Assembly: GCA_018806915.1 (NCBI GenBank)
Contig: JAGKQI010000049.1
Coordinates: 1,860,001 to 1,924,000 of the forward strand
DNA: 64,000 nt
Direction of reading: 5' to 3'
DNA from: Phytophthora colocasiae
Lineage: Eukaryota; Oomycota; Peronosporomycetes; Peronosporales; Peronosporaceae
The stretch's first letter is position 1. Every line of letters starts with the position of its first letter. The notes below the pieces were generated by a model, which was not told where the DNA came from, made no database searches, and worked only from the letters and a program-made list of their open reading frames with translations. Positions 2,345-15,885 of this stretch are shown in pieces. A program made the position numbers and the translations under genes.

Positions 2345-3763
2345 TTACTTCAGGAGCTTGACGATTCCGTAGCCCACTAGACCGACGACGGTCGCACCAA
2401 ACAGGTGGAAGCTCAGCGGGATACCGAAAGGAGGCACAGGTGGCACCGGGACATTGCCAGGGTCTTCGTACAGTGCCGTTCGGGTGTGCTTAGGGTCACG
2501 GAGGATAGCAGCCACACGACGGCCAGCAACGAAGCCATCTTCATGGAAACCACGGCCCAACCAGGCACCAGAGAGCGAGATTCCTTCTTCCTGAATGATC
2601 TCGTCCTGCGGCAGACAATCCGCGAGTAGACGCGGGTGGTCCCAGCGGAAGGCGGAGATTACCTGGTCCGGAGATGGACGCTTGCCCTGGAAGTCGTGCG
2701 GCGTGATGGTCACGAACACGTCCTTCTTGCTGTTAAGGCGCTGGATGCGGTTCATCCAATACGTCAGCACATACTGCTCGTCCTCAGTGATGAGGACGTT
2801 CCAGCTGCTCCATACCTTGTTGGACGGAGGTAGCATGATCGGATCGCGGTGAACGTACATCATACTCTTGTGATAGTGGAAGCGCATCAGCGAGCGGTAC
2901 GCCTTCTCGCTCCAACGCACCATCTCGGCACTCTCGTCGGCATGGGTGGCGAGCACAACGTGGTCGCACTCGATCCGCTCGCCGCTCTCGAGAATCACCG
3001 CCTTACCGCCCTTCTCGACCTGGTCCACAGCAGCGTTGTACCGGACAGTTCCATTGTACTCCTCCGTGAATAACTTGAGGAACGGCTCGATGTAGCCCGA
3101 GCCAACGTACCACCACAAGTGCTTGGGGCGGTCCGTGCGGCGTCCCAATGCACCGAGAATCACCTGCCACAGTGGCATATACAGCGAGTTGGAGTGGGTC
3201 TTGAGGCAACGGAGGAACTGCGTCACAGGAAGATCCAGCACGTCGTGCTTGGGTACCGTCCACAGGATGGACACGAAAGCCAGGAAGTAGTGACGGAAGA
3301 ACTCGTTCGAGTAGCGGTCCTTGGCAGCCCATTCACGCGTGGTGATAACCTCCTTCACTGGCATCGTCATGAGGTCCATCGTGAACTTGTAAATGTCAAT
3401 GAGCACGCGCCAGATGCGTCTGTCAAAGAGGTTGAGCACGCTGCCGTGGAACGGAGCACGAGACGAGAACTGCATGTCGCCCTTGACTTCCGACGTGACT
3501 GTGAGGCTCATGGGGATGCGCTTCTTCGTGGTGCCATCCGGCTGTGTGACACCCAGCGACTTGAACCATTCCTTAATGTTGGGGTTGGAGTCTCCGAACA
3601 TCATGAAGCCAATGTCCACCATTTCGCCGTCGATCTCCATCTCGTACGTGTGTCCACCGAGTGTCGCGTTCTTCTCCAGTAGAATCACTTCATGGCCATC
3701 CTTGACCAAGTGGTAAGCGGCGGAGGTGCCGCCAATGCCGGAACCGACCACGACGACCTTCAT
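2345..3763 (-). CDS. FAD-dependent amine-oxidase-like oxidoreductase, copy 1
   Basis: 472-residue flavoprotein of the NAD(P)-binding Rossmann/amine oxidase group (COG2907-like). The N-terminus is a dinucleotide-binding fold, VVVGSGIGGTSAAYHL (GxGxxG), followed by an acidic strand end and the GGHT motif (LLEKNATLGGHTYEM) that contacts FAD. A C-terminal GAWLGRGFHEDGFVAGR segment fits the second FAD-contact region. The last ~25 residues (FHLFGATVVGLVGYG) are hydrophobic and could anchor a membrane. Substrate unknown. I start at the ATG at 3763, directly before the Rossmann strand; an in-frame ATG at 3886 would add 41 atypical residues, and an Inr-like motif lies between the two. A close paralog is at 12783-14228. 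Confidence 0.8.
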   Translation of the reverse strand: MKVVVVGSGIGGTSAAYHLVKDGHEVILLEKNATLGGHTYEMEIDGEMVDIGFMMFGDSNPNIKEWFKSLGVTQPDGTTKKRIPMSLTVTSEVKGDMQFSSRAPFHGSVLNLFDRRIWRVLIDIYKFTMDLMTMPVKEVITTREWAAKDRYSNEFFRHYFLAFVSILWTVPKHDVLDLPVTQFLRCLKTHSNSLYMPLWQVILGALGRRTDRPKHLWWYVGSGYIEPFLKLFTEEYNGTVRYNAAVDQVEKGGKAVILESGERIECDHVVLATHADESAEMVRWSEKAYRSLMRFHYHKSMMYVHRDPIMLPPSNKVWSSWNVLITEDEQYVLTYWMNRIQRLNSKKDVFVTITPHDFQGKRPSPDQVISAFRWDHPRLLADCLPQDEIIQEEGISLSGAWLGRGFHEDGFVAGRRVAAILRDPKHTRTALYEDPGNVPVPPVPPFGIPLSFHLFGATVVGLVGYGIVKLLK

Positions 3764-3792
3764 AACAGCGAGAGTGTGCGGGACAAGGAGCT

Positions 3793-3807
3793 GATTCCAG
3801 AATGGCC
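3793..3807 (-). promoter_or_regulatory. Inr-like start motif of FAD oxidoreductase copy 1
   Basis: Minus strand reads GGCCATTCTGGAATC, resembling the oomycete Inr (CATTCY) followed by an FPR-like AATTT-type tail, 30-44 nt before the ATG at 3763. The match is partial. It supports the downstream start. Confidence 0.35.
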
Positions 3808-4259
3808 ATTGCGCACGTCTGAGAGCCAACCCCCCTTTTCGCCACCACAGGACACTTGACTTGGAGTTTGTAAGGGGACGATCCACCGAGAGGATCCACT
3901 TACAAACACTGCGATTGGACAGTCAAAACGTGGAGCGCTTCAACTTGACCACCTGTGTACGACACCTTTCGGCGAGGCTTCTTCACTCTGCATTGCAGGC
4001 ACATGCAAGTGCAACACGTTGAATCTGTTGCGGTGGTGCCGAGATTGTTAGTTGCCCGGCTCTGACTGCTCTGGGCATGCAACGCGTACGCTTGTACCGT
4101 GTCGGTCATGGAGAGGCCAGCAGTGCGTGTCCTTCGTGACGGTATCTGATCTGGTGTTGGTAAGCGAACTACGGCGCAATGGCATCGAGCTATGTATGCA
4201 CTCGAGCTCGAAAATAAGGCCAGACTGGTTATCATCGCCTTTGACGTCCGATTCAGAAC

Positions 4260-4273
4260 TTAACCCTTCTGCG
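4260..4273 (+). repeat. Left TTAA target site and terminal inverted repeat
   Basis: TTAACCCTTCTGCG, the exact inverse of the sequence at 12743-12756. CCC after TTAA is typical of piggyBac ends. Confidence 0.85.
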
Positions 4274-4936
4274 AAGCAATGGACTAAACTATAGTATACA
4301 AAGTTAAGTCAATGTCTTGTAAAAGGGCCCTCAGGCGCCCTTTTAGAGACATATCGCAAGATCATCCATGCCTCAAATCTCGCAAGATGCACGAGGATAC
4401 CTCCTTCATCAACCTCTAAGGGCACATCATGCGCCTTTCAAGTTGGCGATCTGATAGGCCGATATCCTGGAGCTAAACAAAAAATCTGGAAGAATACTCT
4501 AATTGGATAAAAAGAAGTTGGTGGGAAGCAGCTTCAGGTAACAAATCAAAAATTACGTCAAACATGAGCCACGTTTTTGAACGCCATGCTTGGAATGATG
4601 ATGCTTGGATGTTGTCTTGCATGAGCACTGGCGCCGCGCTTGCAACAACTACGTCTACACAAACACTTTCCGCTTGTTAATGGCAGTCCAGAATGGCTTT
4701 ATCATTCCCTACGTGTTCGCAATTAGCTTCTTCTACAAACAGCTAGCAAACTGGAATAAATGCCTTTGAATGCCAGAATTAATTCTTATTGAAACTTAAT
4801 TATTTCAAAAACACATAGCATATAAATTACAAAACAACAAGTGAACTATCAAAATGCGACCTGTTAAAATTAATCGCGAACAACGACGCGTGGCGACCGT
4901 CCAGCATTTCCCTCCCCCTCCCGTTTCGGAGAATTC
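4274..4936. other. piggyBac left subterminal region, non-coding
   Basis: About 660 bp between the left terminus and the transposase ATG. No ORF is convincing. It has a short hairpin AAAAGGGC...GCCCTTTT (4321-4344), and a related GGGCACATCATGCGCC motif at about 4419-4436. Both resemble sequence near the right end (12652-12680), so these are likely subterminal repeats for transposase binding. Confidence 0.5.
4321..4344. repeat. Subterminal hairpin, left
   Basis: AAAAGGGCCCTCAGGCGCCC followed by TTTT: 8-bp complementary arms around a short loop. A matching motif is at the right end. Confidence 0.5.
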
Positions 4937-5205
4937 ATGACGCTTAGTGAAGAAGCACCCGGAGAGAAGAAGGCACCACCACCAGGGCAAGTCAGCAAGC
5001 GACGCCGGCTTGATACGTCCACCGCGTGGGGCGTTCGGTTTCGTGATGTGTGGGCGGCGTTATTAAAAGATGGGTGGACATCAAAGCGACCAAGTGGCCG
5101 GAGCTTGGACTCGCGATACCAGTACATCGTCCCTCGTGGGCGTTATAATGGTGAGGAAGGGGTCGACTTCTTTCTCAGCGAAGACGCCTTGATGCAACAC
5201 CTCCA

Positions 5206-6400
5206 TGATGCCGTCCAAGGTAAGTAAGAATGGTGTGATTTGGTGCTACGTGTACTTGACATTGTTCGTGTATGTGCTATAGGTGACGAGCTACGAGAAG
5301 CAGTGGCAGAGCGTGGTGGCGGCGCAGTACAGCAGTGTCGCGGTGCAGCGCAAGACACCGGTGCAGCCGTTGACACCAACGTCCAAGGTGCGTGATGAAT
5401 GTGTACTGGACGACGGTGCACTAGTTGCTAATGTTGTGTGCATGCGTAAGGTGCAGGTGGTGAGCATCGAGCAGCAGGCGGACTACATCTCATCGATGCT
5501 GTGCAAGGTGTGTGAGGTCTTTATGGAGGTGGTGCTTCTGATGGCTGATGCTGCTATGTGTTTTGTAGGACTTGGACATCGGGACGATGCTGGCACAGCG
5601 TACGCTGGTACTGTCGGTAGAGGTGAGAAAGAACTACATGGACTGTGTGGGTGCTGTGGTTGTTGACGTTATTTGCGTACTGTGTATGTAGCTCACGAGC
5701 ATCGTGTAGGAGTTGTTGTTAGTGACGCCGCTGGCCGAGGTGGGAAGCCGTGTTGTGAGATGGACACAAGATGCTGACGTTGTGCTATGTGATATGCAGT
5801 TTCCAAGCGCCGTGGATCAGCAGCAGTGGATGATGAGGGTGGCGTTACTGGCCCAGGTGAGCGGAATTATATTGTAGAGGTGTTCTGTGTTAGTGACATC
5901 GTTATGCTTGCTGTGTAGTTACCAAACGTCGCGTGTGCGTGAGTTCTGCTAGTGGTGTACGTACGTCGAGACGTAGGCGTGCAGCTGCTGAACGTCCGAT
6001 TGGTGGACAATCTGCTCGTGGTCGTGCACTTCGAAGTGCTAGTAATGAACTTGCTTCGGGTGCTTTGGCTGGCACAAGTGACGGTCGTGCTTCGGCCATT
6101 GGACGTGCTGCTGGTGATGACTTTGTTTCGAGTGGCCAAGTTGGCAGCGATGAACTTGCTCGTGGTGGACGTGCGCTTCGAGGTGAACGTGCGCTTCGAG
6201 GTGAACGTCCAGCTGGTGATGAACTTGCTTCGAGTGGTAATGCTGGCACAAGTGGTGGACGAGTTTCGGACAGTGAACGTCCAGCTGGTGATGATCTTGC
6301 TTCGAGTGGTATTGGCACTAGTGGTGGACGAGCTTTGGACAGCGATCGTGCTACTGGTGATGAACTTGCTTCGAGTGGTAATGCTGGCACAAGTGGTGGA
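5206..6400 (+). repeat. Left arm of internal inverted repeat (shared exon module)
   Basis: Covers the end of exon 1, introns and exons 2-6 and the start of exon 7 of the transposase gene. It is repeated in inverse orientation at about 10840-12106 with few differences (a 2-bp change in the GGG run after exon 5, some substitutions). Introns are conserved as well as exons. Confidence 0.85.
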
Positions 6401-6815
6401 CGAGTTTCGGACAGTGAACGTCCAGCTGGTGATGATCTTGCTTCGAGTGGTATTGGCACTAGTGGTGGACGAGCTTTGGACAGCGATCGTGCTACTGGTG
6501 ATGAACGTTCTTCGAGAGGTATTGCTGGCACTAGTGGTGGACGAGTTTCGGACAGTGAACGTCCAGCTGGTGATGATCTTGCTTCGAGTGGTATTGGCAC
6601 TAGTGGTGGACGAGCTTTGGACAGCGATCGTGCTACTGGTGATGAACGTTCTTCGAGAGGTATTGCTGGCACTAGTGGTGGACGAGTTTCGGACAGTGAA
6701 CGTCCAGCTGGTGATGACCTTGCTTCGAGTGGTATTGGCACTAGTGGTGGACGAGCTTTGGACAGCGATCGTGCTACTGGTGATGAACGTTCTTCGAGTG
6801 GTAGTGCTGGTACTA
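6200..6815 (+). repeat. Coding tandem repeat in transposase exon 7
   Basis: Units of about 45-48 nt encode a Gly/Ser/Asp/Arg-rich motif such as GTSGGRVSDSERPAGDDLAS alternating with GTSGGRALDSDRATGDE. About a dozen units; the copy in the DOT1-like gene has fewer. Probably a disordered linker. Confidence 0.8.
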
Positions 6816-9639
6816 GTGGTGGAAATGATGTTCGTCGTGCGTGTGGCACTAGCGAACAACGTACAGCTAAACATGGGCGTACGGCTAGATATGGGCGTGT
6901 GTCTAGTGGTGGGCGTACTACTGCAGATGTGCGCACTTCTAGAGGTGGGCGTACGGCTAGAGGTGGCACTGCTAGAGGTGGTCGCACTATTCATGGTGGA
7001 CGGGTTGCTAGTGTTGGGCGTGTTGGCTTGGCTGCTTGCAACGAACCTAAGTCTAATACTGGACGGGCAGAAATGTATGGGTGTGTTTCAAGCAGTGCAG
7101 CAGTTGCAAGCGCTGGCAATAACATCACGGTTGGTGAAATTGATAACTCACGGTGTCTCAATGTTCGAGCATCTTGTGGCGGTAGTTTTAGTGTCGGTAC
7201 TACCCGTTACACTGGCGACAACGACGTTATATCAGTGGCCGATGAAGGTGATAGTGACGGAGTATCTGTGATTAGCGGAGGTGCCAGTAGTCCAGACACG
7301 ATGAATCTTGCGCCATCTTCATCACGTGCGAACACCCCAACATCTCGATCACCCAATGAGGCCAAAACAACACCACGATCCACGCCTATCCTACTCCAAG
7401 ATGTCTACATTGACAAACTGGTCGCGTTCACACCTGACAATGAAACGTGGATGAAGGCTAAGGCATACAGACCGATTGGTACATCCTACATTGTCGGCCG
7501 CATTTACCGTTCTGTGAAGAAGGGGAAGAACGCTACTCTCTTTCAAATCCGATGGCTGGATAGTCAATTTCAAAATAACTTGGAGATCATCAACGCTGGC
7601 GTCGCACAGCGTGGTATCAAGAATTACGTTGCACTTACACAGTTGAAAACTCCTAACTGGCGTGTTCTCGTGGAGCCTGATCCTGGTGAGGAGCTTGACA
7701 TCGACTCTGAAGCCTCCGACCTAGTGGAAGACCCCATTGAAGCGTTCGATCCTGGCAGCGTTCTTCCCACGAGTCTATCAGAGGTGGAGGCGATTAGAAA
7801 CATGCGATTTGTCCCCGGAGAAGACGTTGAATCTCCCTCCTACCTGTATGCGCATGCCGACGGTACAACCAAGACCCACATCCGCCCTGAGTACAAGCAC
7901 CTTTTCGAGCACTCTGCCTGCTCAAGCTTTTTCGCGTACATACCACTATTTTTCTGGCGCCAGACATTACACGAGACGAATCACTACGCTACTTTAAAGG
8001 ATATTCGCATCGGCAACCCGTTCACGCTGGACGAGTTGATGACTTTCCTCGGAATTTTGTTCTTCATGGCTGTGAATGATAAGGGGGAGTACGCAAACTA
8101 TTGGGGTCAACAAGCCGAAGACTTAGTCTTTGGAGGATCTACAACCGCTCTAGATTCTATCATGTCACTGTATCGATTCAAGCTCCTTCGGCGTTGCCTG
8201 AGCTTCAATGCTTCGCCAACCACTCTTGAGAAAGATGCTGCGGCAAGGATTAGGCCGCTTCTGAATCTACTAAAGATCACCGGGGGGCAGTACGTTAATG
8301 TCGGACGCAATGTTGCTTTGGACGAGGCTAGTGTCGCCTGCAGAACTCGCCAAGGCCGACACATGATCGTGTACAACCCCACCAAGCCAACGGGCAAGTA
8401 TCACTTCCGACTTTATATGGTGTGCTGTTCTACTACGTGGATAGCTCTGAACTACAAGCTTCACTGTAATCGAAGTGACATTTTGGACCGTTTAGACGGT
8501 GTTGTTGGGCTGGAGGAAGCCCAGAGTTTGAGAGAGGAGTTCGAAGCTGTATCGAAAATCCGGCAGCATGTGCTTGAAGTTACGACCTCTCTTTGGGACG
8601 AACCGAATTGTGAACATGGACAACTACTATACATCAGTGCAGCTGCTGCAGGAACTGCGGCTTAAAGGTCTCTATGGGAGAGGTACAATTCGTGCGAATA
8701 GCAAACACTTTCCTGCGCATTCAATACTGCCCAAAGATGATTGCACTCGTGGAGACTACCGACAGGCTGTGGCTCGGGATCACAGTATGCTAGCGGCATC
8801 CTGGTGTGATGGCAATGTAGTCAACATGATTTCCAATGCAGATTCGACAGCCATTACAAGTGTGGCTCGAGTGATTGGCAAAGAACGAAAGGAATTTACG
8901 TCGCCAGTGTGTGTTGCCCACTACAACGCCAATATGCAAGGGGTTGATAGACTTGATCAAATTAGAGGACGCTTCTCTATTTCTGACGGACACTCCTATA
9001 GACGTTGGCACAAAAAGCTGGCATTAGCACTAATCGATGTCGCGCGATCCAACGCATACCTCACTCAACGTCTCGTCAAAACGGACACCCCGCCCATCCG
9101 AGACCCTCATCGAAAGTTTATGATGGAGCTTGTGGGGGAATTGCTGAATGTACAGTGGAAAAACGCTCCAAGTGAAGGGCGCATGCTTTACACTGGCGCA
9201 TGTGCTACAAGAGACGAAATTGAAGCAGTAAACATGCCGCCGGCACGACCAAGCGTTGACCGTGTTAGAGGTGCGACGATGGTGTGTACGTCAGTTTCGT
9301 CAAGGCAAATTTATGACAAAAGGCAGAGGAAACGTCGACGCTGCATAGTATGCAGGTGGGAGGGCAGATACCCAACCGAGGTTACGACCTACTGCTATTC
9401 CCATGACGTATGCTTGTGCCGAGAACTGCACGACGTACCTGTCAAGCCGTGGATGTGCCCAAACACTACTGCAACATGTTGGGAAAAATTCCATCAGTTC
9501 TATCTTCAGCAAAATTTGTTTACTGACAAGGGCAACGTCAGGCGACACTCAAAGCTTGCCATGCTGAAAGCAGCAGCAGGTGACAACGAGTCGAGGCCAC
9601 CTGTAGTACGCCAAATTCAAATATAGGTGAAGTTGTTTG

Positions 9640-10012
9640 TTTGAGTGCATGTGTTTACCTGTATGTAACTTGCTTCTAGTGCATGTGTTTACCTGTATGT
9701 AACTTGAGTTTAGTATGCTTCTAGTGCATGTGTTTACCTGTATGTAACTTGAATTTAGTATGCTTCTAGTGCATGTGTTTACCTGTATGTAACTTGAGTT
9801 TAGTATGCTTTTAGCGCATGTGTTTACCTGTGTGTAACTTGAGTTTAGTATGCTTCTAGTGCATGTGTTTACCTGTATGTAACTTGAATTTAGTATGCTT
9901 CTAGTGCATGTGTTTACCTGTATGTAACTTGAGTTTAGTATGCTTTTAGCGCATGTGTTTACCTGTATGTAACTTGAGTTTAGTATGCTTCTAGTGCATG
10001 TGTTTACCTGAA
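9640..10012. repeat. 45-bp minisatellite between the two convergent genes
   Basis: About eight copies of a 45-bp unit containing GTGCATGTGTTTACCTGTAT and a GAGTTTAGTATGCTTCTA tail. It lies just 3' of both genes, so both 3' ends may run into it. Confidence 0.9.
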
Positions 10013-10078
10013 TTCCACTTAAATGTACGATGTGTTTGGTGCAAATTGACAGTAGTTATTGTTGGGAAGGCTGTGATA

Positions 10079-12442
10079 CTACTTTGTATTGCTGTTGTAC
10101 AGATACACAGGAACTCGATCAGCCTTCCAGCTACATCTCACAAGGATTTCATCTGCTAGACTCCAGCGAAGACAAAACGGCTCTGTGCACGACTTTCGAT
10201 GTCTTGGGCAGAATCGAGATGTAGCCGCCAGTAAGCGAGCCTTTGATAAAGTTGCGAGCTCTCGGGCCACCACCAGCTTCGCGTCTTCTTCAAATAAAAA
10301 AATATTCGCGAATACTAATGTAGCATCACGCGTAGCAGGGTTGCTTGAAAATGAAACATCCCGCACGTCTGTTTTCTTGATCATCACTTTGCCAAGGTGC
10401 GGGAATCTTCCAACAAACCGATGGAGGCAACGCTCTGCAAGTTGACAAAGATCACTCCGAACTTCTATGCCAACGCATGCCCGGGCTGATGTTGCTATCG
10501 CTACTTGAGCGATGATGTTGCCAACACCTGCCCCAACATCCAGAAAAATATCCCTATTGGTAACAGGACTCATCGCCCGAATTAGGCGAACAACTCCCCA
10601 AGAAAGAACTTCACCGGCATTATCCTGTGTCTTCCCAGCCTTCTGCCTCACGTCCCCGCGAGTGATGTCCCTAAAAATAAGTCCGACTGCAACCACAGCA
10701 TCGCTATGGGGTAATGGAGCAGGCGCTTGATCTACAATGAAACTCAATCAGCCGTAAACGACAGTGATTAAAGGAATGTACATTCTTACCGGATACGTCA
10801 GAATCACTGGATGAATTTAATACGTGAGGGCTGTGACCAGCCCGTCTACCACTAGTGCCAGCAATACCACTCGAAGCAAGTTCATCACCAGCTGGACGTT
10901 CACTGTCCGAAACTCGTCCACCACTTGTGCCAGCATTACCACTCGAAGCAAGTTCATAAACAGAAGCACGATCGCAGACAAAAGCACGTCCACCACTAGT
11001 GCCAATACCACTCGAAGCAAGATCATCACCAGCTGGACGTTCACTGTCCGAAACTCGTCCACCACTTGTGCCAGCATTACCACTCGAAGCAAGTTCATCA
11101 CCAGCTGGACGTTCACCTCGAAGCGCACGTTCACCTCGAAGCGCACGTCCACCACGAGCAAGTTCATCGCTGCCAACTTGGCCACTCGAAACAAAGTCAT
11201 CACCAGCAGCACGTCCAATGGCCGAAGCACGACCGTCACTTGTGCCAGCCAAAGCACCCGAAGCAAGTTCATTACTAGCACTTCGAAGTGCACGACCACG
11301 AGCAGATTGTCCACCAATCGGACGTTCAGCAGCTGCACGCCTACGTCTCGACGTACGTACACCACTAGCAGAACTCACGCACACGCGACGTTTGGTAACT
11401 ACACAGCAAGCATAACGATGTCACTAACACAGAACACCTCTACAATATAATTCCGCTCACCTGGGCCAGTAACTCCACCCTCATCATCCACTGCTGCTGA
11501 TCCACGGCGCTTGGAAACTGCATATCACATAGCACAACGTCAGCATCTTGTGTCCATCTCACAACACGGCTTCCCCCACCTCGGCCAGCGGCGTCACTAA
11601 CAACAACTCCTACACGATGCTCGTGAGCTACATACACAGTACGCAAATAACGTCAACAACCACAGCACCCACACAGTCCATGTAGTTCTTTCTCACCTCT
11701 ACCGACAGTACCAGCGTACGCTGTGCCAGCATCGTCCCGATGTCCAAGTCCTACAAAACACATAGCAGCATCAGCCATCAGAAGCACCACCTCCATAAAG
11801 ACCTCACACACCTTGCACAGCATCGATGAGATGTAGTCCGCCTGCTGCTCGATGCTCACCACCTGCACCTTACGCATGCACACAACATTAGCAACTAGTG
11901 CACCGTCGTCCAGTACACATTCATCACGCACCTTGGACGTTGGTGTCAACGGCTGCACCGGTGTCTTGCGCTGCACCGCGACACTGCTGTACTGCGCCGC
12001 CACCACGCTCTGCCACTGCTTCTCGTAGCTCGTCACCTATAGCACATACACGAACAACGTCAAGTACACGTAGCACCGAATCACACCATTCTTACTGACC
12101 TTGGACGGCGGCAGTTGCTGTGGCAACGATGCTTGTGGCAGCTGTAGCTGCCTTTCGTGAAAGAGTCCTTGGGCCACCTGCAAGTAACGACCGGGAAGGG
12201 GCTACACGACGGGAGCGCCGACGTGTGTGTTGTTCTCCGAAGAAGCATCGCGGGAAGGCCCTTACTACCTTGCCGTAGGTTCTCTTTAGGCTTTCCATCC
12301 GAAGCCGGAGCTCCTTAGACGTCCGCGTCCCATGCATCTGCCGGGCTACATATGCCCATGTAACCCGCAGGCCTTCGTCTTCGAATTGGGCAGCAATCTG
12401 CACTAGTAGCTTGTCTTCTGCGTCTGAGAACGTAGTTCGCAT
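10079..12442 (-). CDS. Myb/SANT-like + DOT1-like methyltransferase gene inside the piggyBac element (8 exons)
   Basis: Exons: 12442-12100, 12036-11932, 11868-11812, 11750-11697, 11627-11580, 11517-11461, 11398-10790, 10731-10079; 1926 nt, 641 residues, with frame intact throughout. Residues ~1-57 form a Myb/SANT-like DNA-binding domain (FSDAEDKLLVQIAAQF ... TWAYVARQM ... RLRMESLKRTYG). The middle is the Gly/Ser repeat shared with the transposase. The C-terminal ~215 residues are DOT1-like: DIFLDVGAGVGNIIAQVA (SAM motif), GIEVRSDL (acidic SAM contact), FANIFLFEEDA (the DOT1 Asn/Phe region) and a Cys-rich tail. DOT1 proteins methylate histone H3K79 in the nucleus. Here the domain may target chromatin at the element or its insertion sites (inference). 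The first exon could contain an extra intron near 12270-12180, but it is open as read. Confidence 0.8.
10840..12106 (-). repeat. Right arm of internal inverted repeat (shared exon module)
   Basis: Inverse copy of about 5206-6400, mapping nearly base for base (position p pairs with about 17319 minus p). It spans exons 2-7 of the methyltransferase gene. Homology stops within exon 7, where the sequence turns to the unique GHSPHVLNSSSDSDVS segment. Confidence 0.85.
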
Positions 12443-12651
12443 TAGTCCAATATGTTGATAATATATCTATGTAAATATCTTACCTTTCTATTGGCGGGGG
12501 GGATCTCAAATGGACGGCAGAGAGACGCCACACAGGAAGATTATGCTGCGCATCGAAAAAAAAAGGTCGTAGTTTATAAAATACCCTAGCCGTAAGAAAA
12601 CAAAGTGCAGTTATTGGTAGAAATTCTGGAAGTTCTTTAAAGTACGTTTTT

Positions 12652-12680
12652 TTCTAAAAGGGCCTTTATGCGCCCTTCAA
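12652..12680. repeat. Subterminal motif, right
   Basis: TCTAAAAGGGCCTTTATGCG then CCCTTCAAG, with partial self-complementarity, resembling 4321-4344 and 4417-4443. A further GCGCATAATGCGCC palindrome is at 12722-12735. Confidence 0.5.
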
Positions 12681-12742
12681 GCAGTCTGTTTTCGTACCTA
12701 AATGAAAAACATACCCAAAGAGCGCATAATGCGCCCCTGCAC

Positions 12743-12756
12743 CGCAGAAGGGTTAA
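12743..12756 (-). repeat. Right terminal inverted repeat and TTAA target site
   Basis: CGCAGAAGGGTTAA, the exact inverse of 4260-4273. Confidence 0.85.
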
Positions 12757-12782: not shown

Positions 12783-14228
12783 TTAGAACTTGACGTCCAG
12801 GTACTTAGCAACGCCGTAGCCTACGAGGCCGACGACAGTCGCGCCGAAGAGGTGGAAGCTGAGCGGTACGCCGAAAGGAGGTACAGCAGGGGTCGCGATG
12901 TTGCCCGGGTCTTCGTATAGCACTGTCTTCTTGTGCTTCGGATCGCGGATGATAGCAGCAGCGCGGCGACCGGCAACAAAGCCGTCCTCGTGGAAACCAC
13001 GACCCAGCCAGCAGCCAGACAGCGTGACACCTTCCTCCTGGATGATATCGTCCTGCGGGATGCAGTCCGCAAGCAGACGCGGGTGGTCCCAACGGAACGC
13101 CGAGATGGTCTTGTCCTCGTCCGGGCGCTGGCCCTCGAACTCCTCGTACGGCGTGATGGTCACGAACACGTCCTTCTTGCTGTTAAGGTGCTGGATGCGG
13201 TTCATCCAGTACGTCAGGATGTACTGGTCCTCGTTGCAGATCAACACGTTCCAACTGCTCCACACCTTGTTCGACTTTGGCAGAAGAGCGGGGTCACGAT
13301 GCACATACATCATACTCTTGTGGAAGTAGAAGCGCATCAGCGAACGGTGCGACTTCTCACTCCAGCGCAGCATGTGCGCGCTCTCATCGGCGTGCGTGGC
13401 TAGTACAACGTGGTCACACTCAATGCGCTCGCCGCCCTGAAGGATGACAGCCTTGCCACCCTTCTCGACCTGATCAACGGTAGCATTGTAGCGCACCGTG
13501 CCGTTGTACTCCTCAGTGAATAACTTGATGAATGGCTCAATGTAAGCGGAACCAATGTACCACCAAAGGTGTTTCGGGCGAGCCGAGCGACGACCGAGCG
13601 TACGCATGATCACCTGCCACAGAGGGATGTACAGCGAGTTGGAGTGGGTCTTGAGGCAGCGGAGAAACTGCGTTACAGGCAGGTCCAGCACATCATTCTT
13701 AGGCACCGTCCACAGGATGGAAACGAAGGCCAGGAAGTAATAGTGGAAGAACTCCTTCGAGTAGCGGCCCTGGGCAATCCACTCACGCGTGGTGATGTCC
13801 TCCTTCACAGGCATCGTCATGAGGTCCATGGTGAATCGGTAAATATCACGCAGGACGCGCCAGATACGTAGATCAAAGAGATTGAGCACACTGCCATGGA
13901 ATGGGGAGCGCGAAGAGAACTGCAGGTCCCCCTTAATCTTGGAAGTGACCGTCAGACTCATGGGAATGCGCTTCTTGGTGGTGCCATCGGCCTCTGTCAG
14001 GCCGAGGGACTTGAACCAGGCCTTCACGTTGGGGTTGGAGTCTCCGAACATCATGGAGCCAATGTCCACCATCTCACCGTCGATCTCCATCTCATACGTG
14101 TGTCCACCGAGCGTCTCGTTCTTCTCAAGCAACACAACTTCATGGCCGTCCTTGGCTAAATGGTAAGCGGCGGAGATACCGCCAATACCGGAACCGACAA
14201 TAGCGACCTTCATTTCTTGTACCTTCAC
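12783..14228 (-). CDS. FAD-dependent amine-oxidase-like oxidoreductase, copy 2
   Basis: 481-residue paralog of the gene at 2345-3763, similar along its whole length: VAIVGSGIGGISAAYHL (dinucleotide fold), LLEKNETLGGHTYEMEI, a middle region with TMPVKEDITTREW, and GCWLGRGFHEDGFVAGR near the end, then a hydrophobic tail (FHLFGATVVGLVGYG) that may anchor it. Same strand as copy 1, so a tandem duplication is likely. The ATG at 14228 gives MKVQEMKV; an ATG five codons on (14213) matches copy 1 exactly. I keep the first because an Inr-like motif lies 23-41 nt upstream. The piggyBac right end is in the 3' flank, so its 3' UTR or terminator may be altered. Substrate unknown. Confidence 0.8.
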   Translation of the reverse strand: MKVQEMKVAIVGSGIGGISAAYHLAKDGHEVVLLEKNETLGGHTYEMEIDGEMVDIGSMMFGDSNPNVKAWFKSLGLTEADGTTKKRIPMSLTVTSKIKGDLQFSSRSPFHGSVLNLFDLRIWRVLRDIYRFTMDLMTMPVKEDITTREWIAQGRYSKEFFHYYFLAFVSILWTVPKNDVLDLPVTQFLRCLKTHSNSLYIPLWQVIMRTLGRRSARPKHLWWYIGSAYIEPFIKLFTEEYNGTVRYNATVDQVEKGGKAVILQGGERIECDHVVLATHADESAHMLRWSEKSHRSLMRFYFHKSMMYVHRDPALLPKSNKVWSSWNVLICNEDQYILTYWMNRIQHLNSKKDVFVTITPYEEFEGQRPDEDKTISAFRWDHPRLLADCIPQDDIIQEEGVTLSGCWLGRGFHEDGFVAGRRAAAIIRDPKHKKTVLYEDPGNIATPAVPPFGVPLSFHLFGATVVGLVGYGVAKYLDVKF

Positions 14229-14250
14229 TAGAAAGCTATTGCAGACACGC

Positions 14251-14269
14251 GTCCAATGCGGAAATGACC
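14251..14269 (-). promoter_or_regulatory. Inr-FPR-like transcription start of FAD oxidoreductase copy 2
   Basis: Minus strand GGTCATTTCCGCATTGGAC closely follows the oomycete Inr plus flanking promoter region pattern (CTCATTYNNCAWTT). It lies about 23 nt before the ATG at 14228. Confidence 0.55.
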
Positions 14270-15885
14270 AAGCTCCAAGCTACGGCGCAATGTCCACCAG
14301 AGGCTTGCCTGCGGATACTGCGGATAGCAGTTGCTTCAGCTCAGCTTACACATCACCACAACTGCAGCGGACGACGTCCACTTACAAAACCCAAGTCAAT
14401 TGAACAAAACAAGGCGTATTTATTTGCTGTACACGCGTATCTGTAGACCTGAAATGCAATTGCAAACTTCCTGCAAATTGATAGCCCGCGAACTCTACGT
14501 CACGCAGGTCCCACCGGAACACTATCGCATGATGTGGACTCAATAGCATGTACGCTGTAATGTCTGCAATTGCAGCAACCGACCCATGGGCCATTCATGG
14601 CAAACATACACTGCAACCATCTCTGATGGCGGATACGTAAACTTGAATGAAGCACCACTGACGGCTACTTGACCCTCTGAAACGTGAACCTTTGTGAGAG
14701 TTTTGCCATAAAACGCGTGTACAGATCGTCAAGTGTTGCAGGTCTTGCCGCTTGGTCTGGTTTCTGTATGGCTCGACTGCCAACGTTTCTTTTGCTGTGG
14801 CCCGGTTTTGAGTGGTGCGGACCCACGAAATCACCAATGCGAGGGCGACAGCTCCGCTGTCCGCCGGCAGTTTGTTGATCGCGACAAGGCTTTGCTTGCT
14901 TGCTCGATGCGGGAATGGCAGGGAAAGCTGTAGTTTGCCATTTGGCGACACGAATCAAGGGTAGGCCCTGTAGGTGTATATGCCTCGCGTGTGAAGTGAT
15001 GACGACAGGAAATGGTAAATCTTACCAGCAACGAATCGCTACGTACCTTGACTGCCAGCTAGCTTGGTGATCAAGTGGCTGGAGTCTTCAAGTGGAATGG
15101 CGCGTACCAAATCCTGTTTGCAGTGTGGTAAAATGACGAATGCGCGTCAACGGTTCAAGCACTTAATTGTTTGCGGATTTTATGACGAAGTCTCTGCAAG
15201 TAAACGAACTTTCGGGCCTCGCACAGGCGCCAACAAGTTGTGGCAAGACCTAGTGGATGCTCGTATATCTACGATGACCCAAAGCCCTGGGCGTCTGCCA
15301 TTGAAGATGTAGAAGGTCATTTTATCGACTCGATCCTAGTTTTTAGCTTCCAGACACTTTATGATGAAGTTGTAGCGGAGGATGAAGAGCAGAGTGTCTC
15401 GATCGCTATTGATTGTAATAACGAGGTTTCAGCCCATGATTCGCCTTCGTAGGGCGTTTTTAAGCTGTTGACGAGACTTGTGGCAGCTTTCCTTGGAGGC
15501 GAACTTGTTCAGCAATAAACGAGGGCAAGTAGTGCACGTACAGGTAGAAACAATCTATCGTAGATGCAGGCAACGCCAGCATTTCTCTCTGTTCCATCGG
15601 ATTCTCAACGATACTTCTGCAGTACCTCTTTGAGGGGTGTTGGTCATTATCGACCTCCGCAACGAAAGCAACATGGTGTGTTCGCTAGCATGTCTTTTAT
15701 ATATCTCGCACTTGCAGAGGGGGGGGGCGAAGGGTATAATAGCATCGTTACTTAGGCTAGAAATGTAATAAGTGGTTCAAGATCGCAAACGCACTGTATC
15801 GACTCGTTAAGGTGCGAATTGGTTTTGGGGGAATCGAGGAGAAGATTTCTTTCTGGAGTGTGAAGCAACAACAGGAAGAGACAGC
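14270..15885. other. Intergenic region with little content
   Basis: 1.6 kb between FAD oxidoreductase copy 2 and RPN2. Only short, unrelated ORFs are present, apart from a possible zinc-finger remnant (15097-15450). A G-run (GGGGGGGG) is at about 15720-15727. No RNA gene or repeat was recognised. Confidence 0.5.
15097..15450 (+). pseudogene. Possible BED/hAT-type zinc-finger transposase fragment
   Basis: An ORF starting MARTKSCLQCGKMTNARQRF continues to HLIVC, giving a C-x2-C...H-x3-C spacing like a BED-type finger. The frame then shifts near 15270 to an ORF with DDPKPWASAIEDVEGHFIDS and an acidic end. It is short and broken, with no catalytic motif. It could equally be chance or a host gene fragment. 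Confidence 0.25.

Follow-up and report, generated by a model that had tools for sequence, protein, structure and literature searches.

Positions 4260-12756 of a 64,000-nucleotide stretch of the Phytophthora colocasiae genome (the window; G000:C50:1860001-1924000) are almost certainly an 8.5-kb piggyBac DNA transposon, which carries its own transposase gene together with a gene that fuses a Myb-like part to a DOT1 histone methyltransferase domain. Several transposon families of the genome have this gene pair, and both genes have been constrained between subfamilies over time. A piggyBac element with a Myb-DOT1 gene suggests a transposon that brings its own chromatin-marking tool. The best explanation overall, to which we give a probability of roughly 0.55, is that the protein is a sequence-guided chromatin writer that acts on the element's own copies and probably counters their silencing.

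All copy, terminus and pairing counts were obtained from a single genome, the window's own assembly (92.5 Mb in 105 contigs, labelled C with a number). The sequence TTAACCCTTCTGCG was found exactly at 4260-4273 on the plus strand and inverted at 12743-12756 on the minus strand. Short inverted termini starting with CCC are a criterion for piggyBac elements, and the termini of both the window's family (CCCTTCTGCG) and a second family (CCCTTTCGCG) begin in this way. TTAA was present at both insertion ends in all 13 copies that were read at both ends (12 distinct sites). Between the termini, Pfam detected DDE_Tnp_1_7 in both pieces of the transposase gene (76.5 and 85.1 bits, cut-off 22.4), whose reading frame is interrupted near 8.6 kb in the window copy, and the DOT1 domain PF08123 (57.8 bits, cut-off 23) in the minus-strand gene. 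An earlier note, made by a model from the sequence alone, had described two genes inside one terminal pair and a frameshifted transposase. The exact inverted termini at 4260 and 12756, the Pfam matches for both genes and the broken frame confirmed this description. The features of the element are as follows.

4260-4273, plus strand: left terminus, TTAA target site and CCCTTCTGCG, found without change in all 13 copies of the family that were read at both ends
4324-4341: subterminal palindrome AGGGC..GCCCT (exact), candidate protein-binding site
4937-5219, plus strand: piggyBac gene exon 1 (GWT.KRP..SLD.RY.Y region), from the spliced model
5210-6455, plus strand: left arm of the internal inverted repeat, covering exons 2-6 and the beginning of exon 7 (pieces I1 and I2, 99% complementary)
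5283-5856, plus strand: piggyBac gene exons 2-6 with introns (5283-5387, 5457-5507, 5569-5622, 5692-5739, 5800-5856), inside the left arm
5919-9626, plus strand: last exon of the piggyBac gene, with repeat linker, DDE_Tnp_1_7 and Cys-rich tail (Pfam, spliced model; tail by eye)
9626-10120: tandem repeat with a 45-bp unit between the two convergent genes, from self-comparison
10079-10731, minus strand: Myb-DOT1 exon 8, DOT1 methyltransferase domain (Pfam, profile search, predicted fold)
10790-11398, minus strand: Myb-DOT1 exon 7, repeat linker, length differing among copies
10862-12109, minus strand: right arm of the internal inverted repeat, from self-comparison
11461-12036, minus strand: Myb-DOT1 exons 2-6 with introns (12036-11932, 11862-11812, 11750-11697, 11627-11580, 11517-11461), nearly unconstrained linker
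12100-12442, minus strand: Myb-DOT1 exon 1, Myb/SANT-like part (Pfam, spliced model); its first 71 amino acids gave 140 genome matches
12659-12676: subterminal palindrome AGGGC..GCCCT at the other end (exact)
12743-12756, minus strand: right terminus, CGCAGAAGGG and TTAA, the inverted copy (exact match; copies read at both ends)

The AGGGC..GCCCT palindrome occurs exactly twice in the window element, near its two ends, and once in an element of the second family on C83, again near an end (shuffle mean 0.09 in either case). The Cys-rich tail of the transposase gave no Pfam match.

Recurrence of the gene pair

The exact 14-base terminus of the window's family occurred 38 times in the 92.5 Mb, and the pattern read backwards occurred once. 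These termini formed 16 neighbouring inverted pairs. All 15 pairs of 7.8-16.6 kb enclosed transposase, DOT1 and Myb-like sequences, while the remaining pair spans 68 kb and is not an element. The earlier note had named two outcomes that would speak against it, a DOT1 gene that never recurs with these termini and termini that belong to different insertions; with 15 of 15 pairs in the same genome, neither occurred. The 13 copies read at both ends had 12 distinct flanks, and those of C58a and C58b were identical. The DOT1 exon had 19 genome matches at 91% identity or more, and a transposase stretch had 17 at 96% or more, with the next relatives near 70% and lower. In the 16.6-kb copy on C50, the transposase halves lie about 8 kb apart, and the DOT1 copies on C29 and C71 (about 91%) had no transposase within 25 kb. 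Four Myb-like exons (96-97%) stand beside exact CCCTTCTGCG termini on C81, near 562050, 629284, 815908 and 852300. No DOT1 or transposase was found alongside them; these four sites, which share a contig, are solo or broken ends.

The second family was defined by the 5.9-kb element on C83, which has the termini TTAACCCTTTCGCG and whose transposase and DOT1 are 66% and 48% identical to those of the window. Its terminus occurred 78 times in the genome (control, 0) and formed 20 neighbouring inverted pairs. Seven of the eight pairs of 5.3-5.9 kb held transposase and DOT1, as did two of the three of 19-27 kb; the four pairs above 100 kb are not elements. The other five pairs (349-352 bp; C36:993045, C50:846455, C58:1448628, C82:82469 and C94:525457) contained neither gene and are probably non-autonomous piggyBac elements resembling miniature inverted-repeat transposable elements.

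The pairing was then counted over the whole genome. Merged scans gave 144 DOT1 loci and 167 transposase loci among the matches listed. From later scans, only rows without plain overlap with loci already listed were entered. A DOT1 locus lay within 6 kb of a transposase in 89 of 144 cases, whereas 1000 random placements yielded 5.5 such cases on average and never more than 14. For these placements, 24 contigs had their true length and each of the remaining ones was taken to end at its furthest hit. As scans were added, this count went from 61/135 over 81/143 and 89/143 to the final 89/144; the last locus, C4:527767, came from 21 fragment rows of a DOT1 scan and has a Myb match 100 bases upstream. 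Before it was added, 123 of the 140 Myb-like matches had a same-strand DOT1 downstream within 2.5 kb (median gap 232 bases), and they served 122 of 143 DOT1 loci; two other matches lay near an opposite-strand DOT1. At many loci, Myb and DOT1 share one open frame (432 amino acids on C22, C57 and C9, 416 on C100, 409 at two C33 loci).

The two genes have also diverged in parallel. For paired loci within 12 kb, the identities of transposase and DOT1 to those of the window were correlated with a Spearman coefficient of 0.80 (n = 76; the 21 fragment rows excluded), which was 0.79 without the window's family (n = 62) and 0.52 in the most distant set (n = 46). With the C83 element as reference and pairs within 6 kb, the coefficients were 0.83 (n = 62), 0.75 outside the reference family (n = 55) and 0.61 in the smallest set (n = 45). 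Since the pairs share descent and are not independent, the correlation indicates a shared history rather than proves it.

At least 23 unpaired DOT1 loci form a group with 36-38% identity to the window's DOT1. Their open frames reach up to 329 amino acids, a length that eight of the loci have exactly. No transposase was found near them in any scan (C9:1188777, which belongs to another group, is left out), and most have a Myb-like match (e.g. G000:C57:2611035, C36:653021 and C105:1055447). They are perhaps DOT1-only non-autonomous elements or another type of transposon.

The Myb-DOT1 gene, its linker and selection

The spliced model of the minus-strand gene has eight exons with GT-AG at all introns and 639 codons plus stop. 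The eight open exons described earlier were recovered, and the length of 641 codons was corrected. A profile built from 14 sequences found 20 PDB sequences, all of them DOT1 or methyltransferases specific for lysine 79 of histone H3 (H3K79) by name, with yeast Dot1 at the top. The predicted model of the DOT1 exon reached a mean local confidence (pLDDT) of 87.2 and a predicted TM-score (pTM) of 0.87. In a structure search with this model, the best 50 of 1963 matches were all DOT1 enzymes (TM-score by query length up to 0.79). In the profile aligned to yeast Dot1, the S-adenosylmethionine-binding motif DxGxGxGN and the motifs GE-LP and N-FLF are kept, so that catalysis by the predicted DOT1 part is plausible. 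The window copy has GEVLS in place of the family's GEVLP.

The closest protein match to the window's DOT1 domain was a P. megakarya protein (89% identity). Annotated proteins with both parts of the fusion also occur in P. fragariaefolia (P0015, by precomputed Pfam matches to PF13837 and PF08123) and in P. palmivora (P0012, whose Myb part was recognised by eye). All named matches in the protein searches were from Phytophthora (P0006 through the label Phyca11), and P0002, P0010 and P0029 came without an organism name. The gene pair itself was not seen in a second species, as protein matches come without genome context. A viral origin was rejected after a scan of viral contigs gave no relative. 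The likely host DOT1 lies on C28, in a frame of 522 amino acids with the best Pfam score and 30% identity to the window's DOT1; it had no Myb match, and the scans found no transposase on that contig.

The two genes of the element are tied together by an inverted repeat that the earlier note had overlooked. In both genes, exons 2-6 with their introns and the beginning of exon 7 lie in its two arms (1.25 kb, 99% identical). The linker in the middle is therefore common to the two proteins, while exon 1 and the C-terminal domain set them apart. In 11 of 17 copies, each arm was detected over more than half of its length; one arm was seen in the remaining six, among them copies with unread stretches and the diverged copies. 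The copy on C69 (G000:C69:203527-212389) has a Myb exon at both ends, as expected if the arms exchange, and in the C52 copy (C52:1497741-1503224) the sole Myb match was at the end away from DOT1. These arrangements are traces of exchange or inversion between the element halves. Self-comparison of the C83 element revealed no such inverted repeat, so the gene pair does not depend on it.

The linker contains repeats with a 141-nt unit (window 5919-6853 and 10790-11398). The length of the right-hand exon 7 differed in eight of nine other modelled copies by -231 to +282 nt, and six of these eight changes were multiples of three. Against C78, substitution rates were alike in exons (20/282 sites) and introns (24/323 sites), and in the longest aligned stretch the substitutions at the three codon positions were 3/8/9 in the Myb-DOT1 frame and 8/9/3 in the alternative frame (3/6/7 and 6/7/3 against C58a). 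The similar exon and intron rates and the codon-position pattern indicate that the linker is nearly neutral. The linker exons (window 5283-5939 and 11398-12036) are open in a second frame too, with G/C-rich third positions by eye. A separate small Myb gene in this alternative frame of exons 2-6 was considered and rejected, as that frame is not conserved.

The terminal parts of both genes evolve differently from the linker. The ratio of nonsynonymous to synonymous substitution rates (dN/dS) of DOT1 exon 8 between the window and copies of 92-93% identity was 0.125 (C58a) and 0.135 (C78), and about 0.18 (range top 0.182) against the isolated copies on C29 and C71. It was 0.06-0.12 for the Myb part (small numbers, 6-7 changes), 0.117-0.204 for the transposase core and 0.37 for transposase exon 1 against two C58 copies. 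The earlier note had taken an intact DOT1 gene beside a broken transposase as a sign of selection on the methyltransferase. The constraint is real, but it acts on both genes, and the argument therefore fails. Selection on DOT1 alone was also rejected because 9 of 14 copies at 97.5% or more had insertions or deletions (indels) in the DOT1 exon, and because the transposase Pfam domain lies in a single unbroken frame in the C58a and C105b copies.

Single copies decay or are misassembled. The eight-exon model was obtained for 10 of 17 copies tried, and its frame was open in three of them (window, C20 and C50a). In the other seven copies, modelling stopped at exon 1, presumably owing to missing sequence, indels or diverged anchors. 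In seven of the nine copies with indels, gap positions outnumbered changed codons in the DOT1 exon (15 versus 1 in C21), so assembly error may add to decay, and the two are not separable.

Possible roles of the second gene

Transposons are usually targets of chromatin silencing, yet many of those described here carry a predicted chromatin writer with a Myb-like part. In the explanation that we prefer, the element would be bound by the Myb-like part, perhaps together with the transposase, and the subterminal AGGGC..GCCCT palindromes are possible binding sites. The DOT1 part would methylate nearby nucleosomes, most likely at H3 lysine 79, and this mark would keep the element's own copies in an open state in which they can be transcribed and cut, as an anti-silencing device. 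We place the anti-silencing step by itself somewhat below even odds. The methylation could keep copies open, which we favour, restrain them, or serve transposition. piggyBac-derived small RNAs are reported for P. infestans in the relevant passages of PMC3522703, and thus a silencing to be countered exists.

Several observations weigh against the chromatin-writer explanation. The earlier note had proposed an N-terminal Myb-like DNA-binding domain and a C-terminal DOT1-like domain; the DOT1 domain stands, but the other part stayed below the Pfam cut-offs (21.9 versus 24.4 bits in the window, 16.8 versus 27 in C83, 25.8 versus 27 in P0015), and for this reason we call it no more than Myb-like. 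The common linker evolves nearly like its introns. The 89 pairs comprised 54 convergent, 31 tandem and 4 divergent ones, and this varying gene order allows more than one capture. In an element of the second family on C93, termini and transposase were present and DOT1 was not detected. Within 6 kb, 55 of 144 DOT1 loci and 78 of 167 transposase loci were unpaired, so not every piggyBac of this genome requires the DOT1 gene; both counts are upper bounds because the scans scored candidates in part (40/59, 116/1055, 105/424, 103/536 and 119/619 for the transposase) and one transposase and one DOT1 scan listed their matches in part. In Ectocarpus, H3K79me2 is found on about a third of intact transposons and is tied to silencing according to excerpts of PMC12477816, a link also made in PMC11541908.

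In Harbinger elements, a second protein helps the transposase. The Myb-DOT1 protein may likewise be a partner in transposition, with the Myb-like part aiding the transposase in end binding or nuclear entry and DOT1 targeting integration or assisting structurally. The conserved Myb-like part (dN/dS 0.06-0.12) and the same kind of subterminal palindrome in two families are consistent with this role. However, the DOT1 domain is constrained (0.125-0.182) and has kept the S-adenosylmethionine-binding and other motifs, neither of which a scaffold would need, and we regard such a partnership as unlikely. Less likely still is that the protein puts a repressive mark on its own copies and so limits copy number. 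This would agree with the repressive H3K79me2 on transposons of the related brown alga Ectocarpus (PMC12477816) and with the expansion of DOT1 genes in brown algae, as passages of PMC13076208 describe it. Our literature search gave no information on what the mark means in oomycetes, and a gene would be expected to be lost easily if it silenced the element that carries it, yet this one is constrained.

The decay of copies (DOT1-exon indels in 9/14), the varying gene order and the second-family element without DOT1 would all fit a host DOT1 gene that was caught once and merely hitchhikes. The constraint between subfamilies, the recurrence within two sets of termini and the parallel divergence of DOT1 and transposase argue against a passenger and make it quite improbable. 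A host DOT1 family into which piggyBac elements chanced to insert could account for the 55 of 144 DOT1 loci without detected transposase, but it is contradicted for the listed elements by DOT1 within exact terminal pairs with different flanks, and the likely host DOT1 on C28 is only 30% identical, with neither a Myb match nor a transposase found on its contig; we practically dismiss it.

Taking the chromatin-writer explanation further, we put forward one joint and rather doubtful claim: that a Myb-guided DOT1 has long been the second gene in most of the diverse piggyBac lineages of oomycetes, has diverged with the transposase, lies behind nearly all of the DOT1 expansion here, and may have fed a broader use of H3K79 methylation at stramenopile transposons.

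Relation to known systems

The element shares the TTAA site, CCCTT-type termini and DDE_Tnp_1_7 transposase with the piggyBac superfamily, to which it adds the Myb-like/DOT1 gene and the 1.25-kb internal inverted repeat common to both genes. It resembles DOT1/DOT1L H3K79 methyltransferases in predicted fold and motifs and differs from them in its short domain joined to a Myb-like part, its location in a transposon and its many copies. The SET fold is unrelated to the DOT1 fold. SET histone methyltransferase genes were described in Phytophthora HarbingerS and MuDR transposons (Kojima and Jurka 2014, cited in passages of PMC12730594); these are likewise oomycete DNA transposons with a histone methyltransferase, but they belong to other transposase superfamilies and carry SET where DOT1 is found here. 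The general kind is therefore not new, and the earlier view of the combination as undescribed holds in part: our literature search found no report joining DOT1 and piggyBac, though Repbase Reports 2014 on oomycete DNA transposons may list these elements. What is distinctive is how widespread the pair is, the class of the enzyme, and the DNA-binding-like part that is built in.

By its proposed function, the protein is similar to VANC of the Arabidopsis VANDAL elements (PMC10398659), as a second, sequence-guided protein that acts on the element's chromatin. Like a VANC-type gene, it lies inside the element's termini and recurs with them. The likeness is one of proposed function: VANC induces loss of silent marks, whereas the predicted enzyme here writes a mark. 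Fungal DNA transposons with a TET/JBP dioxygenase (PMC12730594, in part) also carry an enzyme for epigenetic marks, but its target is DNA methylation, and both elements and hosts are others. In P. megakarya, hypothetical gene families in inverted duplicated blocks with inverted repeats were tied to PiggyBac-like transposable elements and called so far unique to that species (PMC7341134). A text search of the main text of that paper gave neither "DOT1" nor "methyltransferase"; the blocks are perhaps the same element family with its DOT1 gene unrecognised.

In P. infestans, a single DOT1-like enzyme appears in a survey of regulators (PMC4030286), and transposon-borne copies help to explain the roughly 144 DOT1 loci here. 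Annotated Phytophthora "histone H3-K79 methyltransferases" may thus include transposon genes. Canonical DNA methyltransferases were not found in these organisms according to the same paper (PMC4030286), and in such hosts the elements allow the idea that a transposon steers its own chromatin to be tested.

In the window, the element is flanked by two similar tandem genes on the minus strand (2345-3922 and 12783-14279), which the earlier note called flavoprotein-like.

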